The notes beneath the pieces are model-generated. The model had not been told where the DNA came from. It saw only the letters and a list, made by a program, of their open reading frames with translations, and did not search any database. The position numbers and the translations under genes are program-made. A stretch of DNA of 37,889 nt from a bacterium (GTDB lineage Bacteria; CLD3; SB21). Position 1 is the first letter of the stretch. Each line of letters starts with the position of its first letter. Shown here in pieces: positions 23,263-30,809 of the stretch. Location: positions 1 to 37,889 of the forward strand of contig JAIBAF010000035.1 of the NCBI GenBank assembly GCA_019695335.1, in the 5' to 3' direction.

Positions 23263-24489
23263 ATGAAAAAAGTTTTTTACATATTTTTAATGTGGATCAA
23301 CATTGTTTCGGCCAAGGAATTGATTGTCGGAGAAAGTGGTGAGTTCCGAACGATCCGTTCTGCCATCGAATCTGCCCGAGATGGCGACCGTATTATTGTC
23401 AAATCAGGTATCTATAGAGAAGGAGCGCTTGAAATCACTCGCGCGATCACTTTGACCGGAGAGAACGGGGCGGTGCTTGACGGTGAAAATAAATTTCAAA
23501 TTCTGACAGTCAAGGCCTCCGGCGTTACGGTCAACAATTTAACTTTTGAAAATGTCGGCGTGAGTTACGTTCAAGACAACGCCGCAATAAAACTCATTGA
23601 ATCCGATAACTCAAATATCATCGATAATCGTTTTCGTAATGCTTTTTTTGGCATTTATTTGTCAAAGTCCGGGTTTTGTACGATTCGTGGAAACGATCTT
23701 GTCGCTGCGGCTGAGAAAGAAGCCAGTTCCGGTAATGGTATTCACTTATGGAATTGCCACGACATTACTATTGAGAATAATTCCATTCAGCGCCACCGCG
23801 ACGGAATATATTTTGAATTCGTCAAACGTTCGACGATTACCGGCAATCACAGTATCGGCAATCTTCGTTATGGACTTCATTTTATGTTTTCAGATACGTG
23901 CGTATATAAAAATAACCTTTTCAAAGGTAACAGCGCCGGAGTTGCGGTGATGTATACCAAAAACATAACGATGCAAGGCAACCGTTTCGAAGATAATTGG
24001 GGAGCGGCTTCATACGGCATTTTGTTAAAAGATATCACCGGAAGCGAAATTACCGGTAATACGTTTATGAATAATACCGTCGGTATTCACGCCGAAGGCA
24101 CGAGCCGGAATCGCATTTCGGACAACGAATTTCTAAACAATGGCTGGGCGGTGCGCATTATGGCGAATTCTACGGACAATGTGTTTTCCCAAAACAATTT
24201 CATAGGAAATGCCTTTGATGTTGCAACGAACAGCCGCCAGAATTATAACGTATTCGATTCCAATTACTGGAGCGCATACGAGGGGTACGATCTTAACCGC
24301 GACGGCGTCGGCGATGTACCGTTTCGTCCCGTCCGTTTATTTTCATTATTAATCGAACAATATCCGACCGCATTGATTTTACTTCGTAGTTTTCTGATCG
24401 ATGTGATCGATGCGGCCGAATCGGTGATTCCGGCGCTGACACCTGAAACGCTGACCGATGCGAATCCACGAATGCGGAGATTGCCATGA
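23263..24489 (+). CDS. nosD: NosD, periplasmic maturation factor
   Basis: A 408-aa protein with a signal peptide ending near VSAKE and a right-handed parallel beta-helix built from NosD/CASH repeats at ~60-335 (GNGIHLWNCHDITIENN, DGIYFEFVKRSTITGN, YGLHFMFSDTC, NTVGIHAEGTSRN). The C-terminal part ends with the NYWSAYEGYDLNRDGVGD and PFRPV segments diagnostic of NosD. With NosF and NosY it forms the ABC-type complex that assembles the CuZ cluster of NosZ. Its stop codon overlaps the nosF start by ATGA. Confidence 0.95.
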   Translation: MKKVFYIFLMWINIVSAKELIVGESGEFRTIRSAIESARDGDRIIVKSGIYREGALEITRAITLTGENGAVLDGENKFQILTVKASGVTVNNLTFENVGVSYVQDNAAIKLIESDNSNIIDNRFRNAFFGIYLSKSGFCTIRGNDLVAAAEKEASSGNGIHLWNCHDITIENNSIQRHRDGIYFEFVKRSTITGNHSIGNLRYGLHFMFSDTCVYKNNLFKGNSAGVAVMYTKNITMQGNRFEDNWGAASYGILLKDITGSEITGNTFMNNTVGIHAEGTSRNRISDNEFLNNGWAVRIMANSTDNVFSQNNFIGNAFDVATNSRQNYNVFDSNYWSAYEGYDLNRDGVGDVPFRPVRLFSLLIEQYPTALILLRSFLIDVIDAAESVIPALTPETLTDANPRMRRLP

Positions 24490-25217
24490 TACGGATTCAA
24501 TCGCTTGAAAAAAGCTATCAAAAGCTTCAAGTGCTCAAAGGTATTAATTTATCCGTGGAACCGGGTAAAGTTACGGCCATCGTGGGACCCAACAGCGCCG
24601 GTAAAACGACATTGATCAAAAGCGTTCTCGGGCTCGTATTCCCTGATCGGGGCGAAATTTTGATCGATAACGAGCGGGTCAACGGTCGATCGGATTATCG
24701 GCGAAAAATCGGCTACATGCCGCAGCTCGCCCGATTTCCCGAGAACCTCACCCTCAAAGAATTGATCGCACTTGTACAGGATTTACGGCATCGTCCCGGC
24801 GAAACGGATATGGAACTTTTTGAAGCATTTGATCTTGGCAAGGAATGGGATAAACCGATACGGACTCTTTCCGGAGGCACGCGTCAGAAAGTCAGTGCGG
24901 TGATTGCGTTTTTATTTAAGCCGCAAATTTTGATTCTGGACGAGCCGACCGCGGGACTCGATCCGATTGCCAGCAGTAATTTGAAAGATAAAATTTTAAA
25001 AGAACGTGATAACGGAAAAACGTTTATTCTCACGTCACACATTATGAGCGAATTGGAAGAACTTTCCGAACATATCGTATTTTTACTGGAAGGAAAAATT
25101 TACTTTGAAGGCTTGACCGAGGAACTGGTGCGCTTTACCGGTGAACGCAATCTTGAGCGCGCGATAGCAACTTTGATGAAAGGACGGCCGGCATGGACGG
25201 AACTGCAAAAATCCTGA
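24486..25217 (+). CDS. nosF: NosF, ABC ATPase for NosZ maturation
   Basis: A 243-aa ABC ATPase with every motif: Walker A at residues 34-42 (GPNSAGKTT), Q-loop YMPQ, signature LSGGTRQK, Walker B ILILDEPTAGLDP, and H-loop TSHIMSE. It powers NosDFY, which supports CuZ assembly. It overlaps nosD by 4 bases and nosY by 25 bases. Confidence 0.95.
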   Translation: MIRIQSLEKSYQKLQVLKGINLSVEPGKVTAIVGPNSAGKTTLIKSVLGLVFPDRGEILIDNERVNGRSDYRRKIGYMPQLARFPENLTLKELIALVQDLRHRPGETDMELFEAFDLGKEWDKPIRTLSGGTRQKVSAVIAFLFKPQILILDEPTAGLDPIASSNLKDKILKERDNGKTFILTSHIMSELEELSEHIVFLLEGKIYFEGLTEELVRFTGERNLERAIATLMKGRPAWTELQKS

Positions 25218-25984
25218 AGTATGAATTTCATAACATCTTGCGCAGCAAGTGGATGGCCGGTTATGCAATATTTTTTCTTGTTATTACCGATGGGCTTTTC
25301 CGGTTTGCCGGTACGGATGCCAAAGTCATTGTCAGCCTGATGAATATTATTCTCGCTGTCATCCCGCTTGCGAGCATTATTTTTGGCGCGATGTACGTCT
25401 ATCATTCTCGCGAATTTATTGAATTGCTGTTATCGCAGCCGATTGATCGTAAAAATATTTATTGGGGCATTTATTGCGGGCTCAGCTTTACGCTTTCGGC
25501 CGGATTTGTATTTGGAACAGGCTTACCATTTTTATTAGAAGGCGCTGTGGACGCCCGGTATTTTTCATCCCTAATATTGCTGCTTATTACCGGCGTATTG
25601 CTGACGTGGATTTTCACGGCAATCGCTTTCTGGATAGCTATTCGCTACGAGGACAAGGTCAAAGGCATCGGAGCAGCGATGTTGATCTGGATGTTTTTTA
25701 CCGTTGTGTACGACGGTTTTATTTTGTTGATAATTTATTGGTTTGACGATTATCCTCTGGAGACTGTGATGATCGGTATGAGCATGGCCAATCCTGTTGA
25801 TCTTGCTCGCGTCATGCTGCTTTTGAAATTTAATGTTTCGGCGATGATGGGTTATACCGGCGCGGTATTTCATCATTTTTTTAGCGCCGGCACTGGTCTC
25901 GGTATATCGATGACCGTTTTAATTTTGTGGATCGTGACGCCATTTTTCTTGGGCTTGCGATATTTTCGTAAAAAAGACTTTTAA
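25193..25984 (+). CDS. nosY: NosY, ABC permease for NosZ maturation
   Basis: A 263-aa integral membrane protein with about six helices, the membrane partner of NosF. It belongs to the ABC-2 family: an N-terminal amphipathic ILKYEFHNILRSKWM, YHSREFIELLLSQPIDR, and the later PVDLARVMLLL segment are typical of NosY. The start codon lies inside nosF with an AAAGGA site 9 bases before it. The next gene begins 4 bases after the stop. Confidence 0.94.
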   Translation: MDGTAKILKYEFHNILRSKWMAGYAIFFLVITDGLFRFAGTDAKVIVSLMNIILAVIPLASIIFGAMYVYHSREFIELLLSQPIDRKNIYWGIYCGLSFTLSAGFVFGTGLPFLLEGAVDARYFSSLILLLITGVLLTWIFTAIAFWIAIRYEDKVKGIGAAMLIWMFFTVVYDGFILLIIYWFDDYPLETVMIGMSMANPVDLARVMLLLKFNVSAMMGYTGAVFHHFFSAGTGLGISMTVLILWIVTPFFLGLRYFRKKDF

Positions 25985-28085: not shown

Positions 28086-29204
28086 TTAATCGCTTACTTT
28101 TCTATATCGTAAAACCGCCATCGACAACATCAGAACCGCAAAAACCGATAACGCTGCAATGTGATCGTACAAATCCAAAAATCCGGATCCTTTCAATAAA
28201 ATGCTACGCATCATTAGTACATAATGAGCAACAGGATTGAACAGCGTAACTTTTTGAGCCCAGGCCGGCATGCTGTCAATCGGTGTAAAAAGTCCACCCA
28301 TTAGGAGAAAGATCACCATAAAAAACCAGGCAATAAACATTGCCTGTTGCTGCGTATCCGTAACAGTAGAAATAAAAAGTCCGATACCAAGTACGACCAA
28401 CAAATAGATCGCCGCCGTTCCAAAAATCAGTGCGAAACTTCCCGTAATTGGTAAATTGAAAACAAATTTTCCTACTACAAGGCCAAAAGCCAATTCAAAC
28501 AAGCCGATCACCCAAAATGGCAATAATTTACCGATGATGAATTGATGCTTTTTGATCGGTGTAACGTTAAGTTGTTCAATAGTACCGATCTCTTTTTCAC
28601 GTACAATATTCATACCACTGAGAAATAATCCAATCATCGTGACCAGAGCAACGAGAATTCCTGGAATCATGTATGTTTTATAATTGAGTTCTGGATTGTA
28701 CCAAAAAGAATGTTCGATCTGAATAGTATTAGGAAGCGCTACACCGGGCGTTATGTTTTTACCCGCTATTTCCTGTGCGAAATTGGAAATAATTGTCGCC
28801 GAATACGATTGGATGAGTCCGGCCGAATTGCCGTCTTCCGCATTAATCGTAAGTTGAACCTTTGCTTTGCCGGTATTCTCTAAATCGCGCTCAAAAAATT
28901 TCGGAATTTCCAACGCCATATTCACCGTATTGCTTTTCAAATCTTGCTGGGATGCATCGTTTGAAAATGAAGCATTTTTAAGAATAAAGTATCCTGATGC
29001 GCTGAATTTTTCAGCCAATTGTCTAGACACGGTTGTTTGATCTTTGTCGATAAGATGAAACGTCACGTTCTTAATATCAAATGTTGCCGCATTGGATAAA
29101 ATGAGTAATTGAACAATTGGCATGACAAAAATAATAGGCAACATGCCTTTGTTTCTGAAAATCTGCAGGAATTCTTTTTGAACTAAAAATTTAATGGTTC
29201 TCAT
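28086..29204 (-). CDS. ABC-2 permease of the exporter (second subunit)
   Basis: A 372-aa permease of the YhhJ/YbhR/YbhS type. One N-terminal helix (~20-40) and a large periplasmic domain (~45-170) are followed by five C-terminal helices. The family phrases REKEIGTIEQLNVTPIKKHQF and GGLFTPIDSMPAWAQKVT are present. It pairs with the permease encoded upstream to form the membrane part of a tripartite exporter. Its ribosome binding site (AAAGG, 29211-29215) is intact. The inverted-repeat cassette lies only 17 bases upstream of the start codon, so this gene is now separated by about 500 bases from the rest of its operon. Confidence 0.92.
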   Translation of the reverse strand: MRTIKFLVQKEFLQIFRNKGMLPIIFVMPIVQLLILSNAATFDIKNVTFHLIDKDQTTVSRQLAEKFSASGYFILKNASFSNDASQQDLKSNTVNMALEIPKFFERDLENTGKAKVQLTINAEDGNSAGLIQSYSATIISNFAQEIAGKNITPGVALPNTIQIEHSFWYNPELNYKTYMIPGILVALVTMIGLFLSGMNIVREKEIGTIEQLNVTPIKKHQFIIGKLLPFWVIGLFELAFGLVVGKFVFNLPITGSFALIFGTAAIYLLVVLGIGLFISTVTDTQQQAMFIAWFFMVIFLLMGGLFTPIDSMPAWAQKVTLFNPVAHYVLMMRSILLKGSGFLDLYDHIAALSVFAVLMLSMAVLRYRKVSD

Positions 29205-29221
29205 AGCTTGCCTTTAATATT

Positions 29222-29238
29222 GCCACAGAGACACGGAG
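29222..29238 (+). repeat. left terminal inverted repeat of the GxxExxY cassette
   Basis: Reads gccacagagacacggag. It is the inverted counterpart of the repeat at 29681-29697, with one mismatch at the tenth base. Confidence 0.85.
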
Positions 29239-29291
29239 GTCCCAGAGTGCTTTTATAATATGAAACGTTTAATGCCGTCTTTTAATATTTT

Positions 29292-29621
29292 TTAATTAAA
29301 ATTAATCAACAGCCCAATTCTATAATTTCCTAATTTCATATAGCTCAGAATTTGTGCGTGAAAAACCGGATCCATTCGCTCTACGCTTTTGAGTTCAACT
29401 ACGATCTGGTTTTCAACGATTAAATCAGCGCGGAATTCCCCGATTGATTTATTTTTATATACAACAGGGATTGATTTTTGTCTTTCAAAAGTCAATCTTG
29501 ATTCTTCTAATTCAATACAAAGAGCTGATTCATAAATCGATTCAAGTAATCCAGGTCCTAAGGTTTTGTGTACATTAATTCCACAGCCGATGATTTTCTC
29601 GGTAATTTTATTAATTTCCAT
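29292..29621 (-). CDS. GxxExxY protein (PDDEXK_3-like), truncated by an in-frame stop
   Basis: A 109-aa protein of the GxxExxY family, named for Gly24-x-x-Glu27-x-x-Tyr30 (PGLLESIYE). The restriction-nuclease-like core is visible: Asp66 (FRADL), Glu76-x-Lys78 (VVELKS) and Gln90 (HAQILSY). The family function is unsettled. The reading frame stops after GLLINFN. The same frame then continues for 12 codons as KILKDGIKRFIL to a second TAA at 29253-29255, which is the usual C-terminal end of this family. The TAA at 29292-29294 is thus probably a nonsense mutation (for example GAA to TAA) that removes the tail. The core remains, so partial function is possible. It lies inside an inverted-repeat cassette. 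Confidence 0.85.
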   Translation of the reverse strand: MEINKITEKIIGCGINVHKTLGPGLLESIYESALCIELEESRLTFERQKSIPVVYKNKSIGEFRADLIVENQIVVELKSVERMDPVFHAQILSYMKLGNYRIGLLINFN

Positions 29622-29680
29622 CGTCTATTTTCCTTAGTGGTTGCGACAGCTTAGTGTTATTTAATAACCATCTCTGTGTT

Positions 29681-29697
29681 CTCCGTGCCTCTGTGGC
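29681..29697 (-). repeat. right terminal inverted repeat of the GxxExxY cassette
   Basis: On the minus strand it reads gccacagaggcacggag, matching 16 of 17 bases of the repeat at 29222-29238. Confidence 0.85.
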
Positions 29698-29702
29698 GAA
29701 TT

Positions 29703-30809
29703 TCACTGTAAACGGATCTTAAATTTTTTTACGCTGATGGATATTAGGAACACCATCATTCCGCCGAGGATCAGCGTTTCTTTCCACAGATATTCAATGC
29801 CGACGCCTTTGAGCATAATGCCTTTCACAATGATCAGGAACCATTTGGCCGGAACAATATTGCTGATGATCTGAAGGGCTGCAGGCATGCTCGAGATCGG
29901 AAAAATAAAACCGGATAAAATAATGACCGGCAGCATCAGCCCGGCCAACGAAAACATCATAGCCGTCTGTTGTGAATTGGCAATCGTCGAGATCATGATA
30001 CCCAGTGATAAGGCCGTTACAACAAACAAAAAAGACTCGAAGAAGAAAAAGCCATAACTGCCGTTAAACGGCACACCAAACACGTATCGCGCCAGCAGCA
30101 GGATCGTCGACGTATTGACGAACGATAAAAACAAATACGGAATAACTTTTCCGATAATGATTTGTACCGGCTTAAGCGGTGATACCAGCAGGATTTCCAT
30201 TGTGCCCAATTCTTTTTCGCGTGCAATAGTGATCGACGTCATCAAAGCCGATACCAACATCAGCAGCAGCGCGATAAGACCCGGAACAAACAAGTAAACG
30301 CTCTTTAATTCGGGATTGTACAGCATTTTAACTTCAGGATTGATCTGAACGAGCGGGCCGGTCTGACCACGCAATCCTGTTTGATAATCGCGAATGATCG
30401 ACGATGTATAATTGATCAGCATATTGGCCATATTGGGTTCCGTCGCATCGGCAATGATCTGAACTGCGGCTCTATTCTCGCGCAGAAGGCGTTGAGCAAA
30501 ATGCGGTTCAAAAACGATCACTTCTTTGACGCGATTTTGTTTGAAAACCGATTCGATGTCACCGCCAGGTTTCAATTGATCGATGATTATAAAATATCCG
30601 GATGAAGCGATTTTTTGAGTAAGTTCCTGAGTCATATAATCGTTGGATTGATCGAGAATGGCAATCCGGGCATCGTTGACTTCATTGCGGATGGCGAATC
30701 CGAAAAGGATCAATTGGATGATCGGCATGCCGAACAAAATCAGCATGGTTCTTTTGTCACGAAAAATGTGATAAAATTCTTTGATAATAAAACCGCGAAA
30801 ACTTTTCAT
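29703..30809 (-). CDS. ABC-2 permease of the exporter (first subunit)
   Basis: A 368-aa permease, homologous to the one at 28086-29204 (same layout: N-terminal helix, periplasmic domain ~45-170, then five helices). Family phrases are REKELGTMEILLVSPLKPVQI and SGFIFPISSMPAALQIIS. It starts within the last 4 bases of the preceding ATPase gene (ATGA-type overlap), so it is translationally coupled to it. The YbhS/YbhR pair of Enterobacteria is the nearest functional model: a drug exporter working with an HlyD-like adaptor and TolC. Confidence 0.92.
   Translation of the reverse strand: MKSFRGFIIKEFYHIFRDKRTMLILFGMPIIQLILFGFAIRNEVNDARIAILDQSNDYMTQELTQKIASSGYFIIIDQLKPGGDIESVFKQNRVKEVIVFEPHFAQRLLRENRAAVQIIADATEPNMANMLINYTSSIIRDYQTGLRGQTGPLVQINPEVKMLYNPELKSVYLFVPGLIALLLMLVSALMTSITIAREKELGTMEILLVSPLKPVQIIIGKVIPYLFLSFVNTSTILLLARYVFGVPFNGSYGFFFFESFLFVVTALSLGIMISTIANSQQTAMMFSLAGLMLPVIILSGFIFPISSMPAALQIISNIVPAKWFLIIVKGIMLKGVGIEYLWKETLILGGMMVFLISISVKKFKIRLQ

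Follow-up and report, generated by a model that had tools for sequence, protein, structure and literature searches.

The window, i.e., the whole stretch of 37,889 nucleotides that was analysed, carries an operon encoding two ABC-2 permeases, and a cassette of 476 bp (29222-29697) is inserted between the two permease genes, all on the minus strand. The features of the cassette and its surroundings are listed below with the basis of each assignment in brackets, G000 denoting the genome of the window, G001 a sister species of the same genus, and G002-G006 five genomes of the same family.

28086..29204, minus strand: downstream ABC-2 permease gene of the interrupted operon (profile match)
29205..29221, no strand: gap of 17 bases from the cassette to the downstream permease start (sequence)
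29222..29697, minus strand: whole inserted cassette, in operon sense (absent from G002-G006, same junction filled in G001)
29222..29247, plus strand: 3' end array, inverted copy, GCCACAGAGACACGGAGGTCCCAGAG (sequence; iteron rule)
29224-29230, 29232-29238 and 29241-29247, plus strand: iterons of the 3' array, CACAGAG, CACGGAG and a degenerate unit, respectively (iteron rule)
29262..29291, minus strand: family match beyond the TAA, untranslated, where the final helix and strand of the fold and the invariant Arg would be encoded (profile match; predicted fold)
29292..29621, minus strand: GxxExxY/PDDEXK_3 ORF of 109 aa with a premature stop (ORF and profile matches)
29630..29635, minus strand: Shine-Dalgarno-like AAGGAA preceding the ATG (sequence)
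29672..29697, minus strand: 5' end array in the sense of the gene, GCCACAGAGGCACGGAGAACACAGAG (sequence; iteron rule)
29689-29695, 29681-29687 and 29672-29678, minus strand: iterons of the 5' array, CACAGAG, CACGGAG and CACAGAG, respectively (iteron rule)
29698..29702, no strand: gap of 5 bases from the upstream permease stop to the cassette (sequence)
29703..30809, minus strand: upstream ABC-2 permease gene of the interrupted operon (profile match)

The two ends of the cassette (29222-29247 and 29672-29697) are complementary at 22 of 26 positions, and at 16 of 17 in the outer 17 bp, which agrees with the near-matching inverted ends that the first-pass annotation ascribed to a 476-base unit; its flank score was reached by none of 300 shuffles (p=0.003). 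The placement described there was also confirmed, with the stop codon of one permease gene 5 bases outside the unit (29703) and the ATG of the other 17 bases outside it (29204). The cassette carries the PD-(D/E)XK gene only, as had been reported, and no transposase gene was found in it either in the ORF list or with Pfam profiles, among which only PF13366 matched. Promoter-like sites within the cassette numbered 0 against 2.1 expected, an Rfam search gave no match of note and no sign of a group I or group II intron RNA structure, and a search for phage carriage gave no match. Elsewhere in the window (23263-25984), a NosD-like gene is followed by genes for an ABC ATPase and a membrane permease, an arrangement that, judging from the translations only, resembles a nitrous-oxide-reductase accessory cluster.

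Relatives were found by searching with the upstream permease, and their permease junctions were then read. In the five genomes G002-G006 both permease genes are directly adjacent and have no cassette between them, and in G001 a cassette with an intact gene occupies the same junction. The comparison upholds the earlier claim of an insertion, and the window unit is a discrete one. Because G001 is filled and G002-G006 are empty, the cassette was either gained after the genus split or cleanly lost elsewhere, a gain being simpler than clean loss in the other family members. The G001 cassette (L069) has two successive right-end arrays and the window cassette has one. A target duplication, suggested for checking in the earlier annotation, did not emerge: flanking direct words show no excess over permutation.

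The window ORF matches Pfam PF13366 (PDDEXK_3; E 1.5e-41, 142 bits, cut-off 22) and NCBIfam TIGR04256 (GxxExxY; E 1.7e-42, 144.5 bits, cut-off 35). A premature TAA leaves it short of the full family length, with the Pfam match running on to 29262. The missing C-terminal part holds the final helix and strand of the structure model as well as the invariant Arg119, and the window copy is probably inactive. The other invariant residues of the family, D66, E76, K78, Q90, and Y94, fit a PD-(D/E)XK site, with Q90...Y94 as the RecB/Cas4-type QxxxY motif. The structure predicted for the GxxExxY protein (mean pLDDT 95.9) found its best PDB folds in lambda exonuclease (E 2.3e-3, TM 0.51), SSO0001 (a Cas4 protein), and LHK exonuclease, while R2 endonuclease and XisH matched weakly; nothing in the PDB matched by sequence, and the resemblance is at fold level only. 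Copies at the same site in different species gave dN/dS values of 0.06-0.08 at dS up to 1.6 (Nei-Gojobori, nine pairs, two of them identical), so the ORF, where kept at one site between species, is under strong purifying selection. A purely selfish element would not usually show such low values at fixed sites, and a host function may be the reason.

In many phyla GxxExxY genes are likewise found between inverted end arrays, in line with the earlier proposal that the ends belong to the gene. With inverted ends counted where at most 1% of shuffles matched the flank score, they were present at 38 of 46 GxxExxY loci in a first set, which included 23 loci from other phyla fetched by similarity and in which orthologous loci are non-independent. 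An independent set, taken from 145 genomes solely by family match, gave inverted arrays at 45 of 61 loci from other genera; the family occurs in 33 of these 145 genomes. As a control, 93 ordinary ORFs of comparable length were taken from 400 kb of host sequence, and only 3 of them had such ends. In part of these tests the shuffles preserve only two-base blocks, the genomes are mostly MAGs, and ORFs at unannotated loci were chosen greedily. The small size of the repeat is the one point in favour of an inverted repeat that arose by chance beside an ordinary gene of the operon, but that explanation is refuted by the shuffles, by the ordinary-ORF control, and by the empty sites, and its probability is negligible. 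The window unit belongs instead to a widespread class of single-gene cassettes of about 400-550 bp.

The arrays of this class follow the rule C-[AG]-C-N-[GA]-A-[GT] (CRCNRAK), with units every 8-10 nt that point inwards (346 forward versus 46 reverse-complement), and 126 of 160 ends have two or more units. The iteron word is specific to each element and alike at both of its ends. Among elements of the host family the words include CACAGAG/CACGGAG, CACGGAA/CACGAAA, ACGGATTAACACTGAT, CGCAAAG, and GCAGATTTCGC; the fixed 17-base terminal repeat envisaged in the first-pass annotation has therefore to be given up, since the inverted ends of the other GxxExxY gene in the host use a different word. 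This second gene (contig C60, 2918-3440) lies between genes for a PorX-like regulator and urocanate hydratase, has ends of ACACTGAT type, and is common to the sister species. Similarity between ends drops with protein distance (Mantel r -0.42, n=30, 0 of 2000 permutations, with related elements treated as exchangeable), a co-variation of word and protein that would be expected if the GxxExxY protein reads the word. Alternatively, the iterons could serve solely as autoregulatory binding sites. The inverted match extends outside the iterons by 2.6 nt against 0.85 expected, and part of this extension may belong to the element. One cassette (L207, approximately 1372-1999) lies in a purine-rich inverted array of GGGAAGAGAGGGG type whose symmetry continues for about 80 bp past the iterons. 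The idea that ends are better conserved than spacers was rejected, as same-site copies showed only a small difference (78% versus 74%), with one pair affected by a contig end.

GxxExxY cassettes are intergenic and mostly lie in the sense of their neighbours. According to names taken from translations, their sites include sdhC-sdhA, nuoB-nuoC, pdxS-pdxT, and positions upstream of gyrB and of hutU; in Bacteroides finegoldii a cassette lies between radA and the next gene, and in Sphingomonas parapaucimobilis at fabD-fabG. Among co-directional neighbours the ratio of sense to antisense was 34:0 and 33:5 (67:5 in total) for GxxExxY cassettes and 23:0 for four-helix cassettes. The five antisense cases all come from the family-match GxxExxY sample, some of them on doubtful ORF calls. 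The sense bias fits a dependence on operon transcription; orientation was dropped as proof of mechanism, since ordinary genes of the host genome in co-directional surroundings are comparably biased (57:9). The variety of sites also bears on a homing-like element, in which the nuclease would cut an empty site, repair would copy the cassette in, and the gene would be selected at one site. A lone PD-(D/E)XK nuclease in the insert and low dN/dS at fixed sites are compatible with homing, but the sites are mutually unrelated, specificity apparently lies in the element's own ends, and coding genes are uninterrupted at the sites examined, which makes homing quite improbable.

Comparison within the family showed that cassettes decay to gene-less hairpins, their ends staying in place. 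Upstream of an aspartokinase-like gene, G006 carries a 452-bp element and G004 and G005 carry remnants of 145 bp and 188 bp, both with the two ends kept, while G000 and G001 have nothing. At nuoB-nuoC, G005 has a full element with a frameshift, remnants are found in G004 (145 bp) and G006 (108 bp), and G000 and G001 are empty. At both sites the species with remnants share a genus with the species holding the full element. A gcvT-like site holds a four-helix cassette in G004 and a 98-bp GxxExxY-type hairpin in G005 and G006. In the host genome there is one solo iteron hairpin of window type; the presence of many solo copies there was rejected after a 400-kb scan that gave terminators and at most one iteron hairpin. 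This gene-less hairpin, of about 70 bp with two window-type iteron ends, lies on host contig C125 (3222-3296) between two co-directional genes.

Hairpins are far more numerous in Gemmatirosa kalamazoonensis, where the GxxExxY gene is flanked by complete 77-bp hairpins. BLAST located the hairpin at 37 places on one plasmid and at no fewer than 40 on the other, a strict pattern matched 9 perfect hairpins whereas its reversed control matched 0, and nine 50-kb segments of the plasmids (450 kb) contained 33 hairpins, of which 8 enclose another and one is three layers deep. They make up a REP-like family of repeats tied to a genome with a GxxExxY gene. Nested examples (L315, 12301-12556; L313, 15489-15648; L316, 37558-37728) show the fixed order CGCGGAG, CGCAGAG, CACAGAG. 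Nesting would reflect either insertion into hairpin loops or the spread of composites, the latter being possible because several nested copies have loop sequence in common. The gene-less hairpins also speak to the possibility of a host-beneficial gene (e.g., for defence or repair) spread by homologous recombination or passive transfer, with the iterons as operators or binding sites. Its dN/dS at fixed sites and the co-variation of iteron word and protein would suit such a gene; operators, however, would not have to flank an insert on both sides as inverted arrays or to occur as gene-less hairpins by the dozen, gene deletions leave the ends in place, and the family is confined to a minority of the genomes searched, so that this explanation appears unlikely.

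A counterpart with a different gene is found in cassettes encoding four-helix proteins of the S23 family (PF05635, 23S_rRNA_IVP). Inverted arrays surround 23 of 27 S23/four-helix loci, and 20 of 26 in a wider set, with a period of strictly 7 nt (identity of 0.65, 0.68, and 0.64 at lags 7, 14, and 21, respectively, versus 0.34 expected). GxxExxY and S23 genes co-occur by genome, both being present in 23 of 145 (Fisher p 1e-6, with cut-offs that differ slightly between the searches). The host genome has six S23 matches, two of which are pieces of one gene; the genes lie on contigs C10, C36, C48, C74, and C83 (L126, L119, L123/L131, L104, and L112), that on C48 being split in two, and the flanks that were read show inverted heptamer-type arrays. 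On plasmids of Nostoc, Trichormus, and Geminocystis (L298-L301, L303), S23 genes lie between inverted TAGGGAG, GGGAAAA, GGGAACA, and CAGAATT heptamers, and a Nostoc edaphicum plasmid carries one antisense between two ribonucleotide reductase subunit genes. These plasmid cassettes provide a tie to the heptameric simple-sequence repeats reported in Xanthomonas and Nostoc, intergenic 7-nt arrays often located between aligned genes (PMC4692102), and invite comparison with the TAACTGA repeats, also intergenic 7-nt arrays (PMC4679880); neither paper found them linked to a gene. The two kinds of reported repeat are like the S23 cassettes, since Nostoc plasmid S23 genes carry inverted heptamers of GGGAACA/TAGGGAG type, and differ from the GxxExxY cassettes in period (7 versus 8-10).

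An S23 gene also resides in the 23S rRNA intervening sequence (IVS) of Coxiella burnetii, which is 428 nt long, contains an S23p ORF, has complementary borders, and is excised by RNase III (PMC4990558). By analogy, the cassettes could be IVS-like RNA elements whose ends pair in the operon mRNA, with RNase III or the cassette nuclease cutting the insertion out and DNA movement following some other rare route. The Coxiella example, the plan shared by the S23-family cassettes described here, the mostly sense orientation, and the folding of the window cassette RNA with its ends as the closing stem (z -4.7) all agree with such an element. Selection on a sense-RNA stem was nevertheless not supported, as the G.U excess that was sought turned out to be the opposite bias (mismatches at GxxExxY ends comprise 66 G.U versus 100 A.C in the sense RNA), and the host sites are intergenic, not in rRNA. 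Overall, an RNA-level element appears a real possibility, though not a probable one.

We consider it moderately probable that the unit is a nuclease-encoding minimal mobile cassette whose ends are read and cut by its own GxxExxY protein in a REP/RAYT-like manner. Under this model, the protein, a small PD-(D/E)XK enzyme resembling RecB, Cas4, and lambda exonuclease, would recognise the iterons at the ends of its own element, probably in their paired, hairpin form, and would cut there; strand transfer or repair by the host would then move the cassette, or the hairpin alone, and no target duplication would arise. Having no promoter of its own, the cassette would be read by operon transcription and would survive mainly where it landed in sense between operon genes, and decay of the gene would leave the ends behind as hairpin repeats. 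The system would therefore be REP/RAYT-like while built on a different enzyme. The mobile unit proposed in the first-pass annotation thus stands with regard to the insertion, whereas we can only infer nuclease-driven movement, which is plausible, and the window copy is truncated.

Four-helix/S23 cassettes, of which the 23S rRNA IVS is the known example, are built on the same plan but have iterons of 7 nt. That the GxxExxY and S23/four-helix cassettes form two branches of one minimal mobile-element class, with mobility via self-matching inverted iteron arrays and not a fixed terminal sequence, is a tentative and somewhat doubtful proposal. If true, it would account for 23S rRNA IVSs, for REP-like CRCNRAK hairpins, and for some or all of the cyanobacterial heptameric intergenic repeats, and would imply a new enzyme chemistry in which a lone RecB-like nuclease moves DNA (or RNA-derived copies). 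Metagenomes commonly contain GxxExxY and S23 genes. A real class would place two orphan protein families within defined elements whose DNA substrates can be tested, offer an origin for the spread of 23S rRNA IVSs and for the over-representation of heptamers between cyanobacterial genes, and make the match of word and protein a direct readout of binding specificity.

The literature searched, mostly without subscription papers, contained no description of the unit, consistent with the earlier view of it as undescribed, and the 23S rRNA IVS is its known relative. In that literature only two papers mention GxxExxY, the end words are absent, and PDDEXK_3 is never linked to inverted repeats, an absence that is weak evidence with subscription papers mostly outside; one of the two papers mentions GxxExxY in passing, with nothing on its surroundings (PMC8934634). 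Among described elements, the 23S IVS comes closest to the cassette (PMC4990558). The two are alike in size (approximately 430-480 bp), in a single short, decaying ORF within complementary ends that can pair as a long stem, and in sporadic distribution. However, the IVS lies in rRNA helices and carries S23p (PF05635), whereas the window cassette separates two ABC-2 permease genes and its ORF encodes a nuclease (PF13366). REP/RAYT systems consist of an HUH/Y1 transposase gene with inverted short hairpin repeats around it and solo hairpins dispersed in the genome. The cassettes resemble them in having a single gene, flanking inverted short hairpins, and solo hairpins elsewhere in some genomes (dozens in Gemmatirosa, one in the genome of the window), but their enzyme is of PD-(D/E)XK type, no HUH/Y1 gene was found in the window cassette, and their ends are iteron arrays with a word that varies among elements. 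MITEs and IS elements have inverted ends and are discrete insertions, IS elements with a recognised transposase and a target-site duplication. The likeness to these extends to internally deleted copies; the cassette differs from them in having no DDE, HUH, serine, or tyrosine recombinase gene, no target duplication, and no fixed terminal sequence. On the best reading of these comparisons, the cassette would work in a REP/RAYT- or IVS-like way and be a member of neither group.
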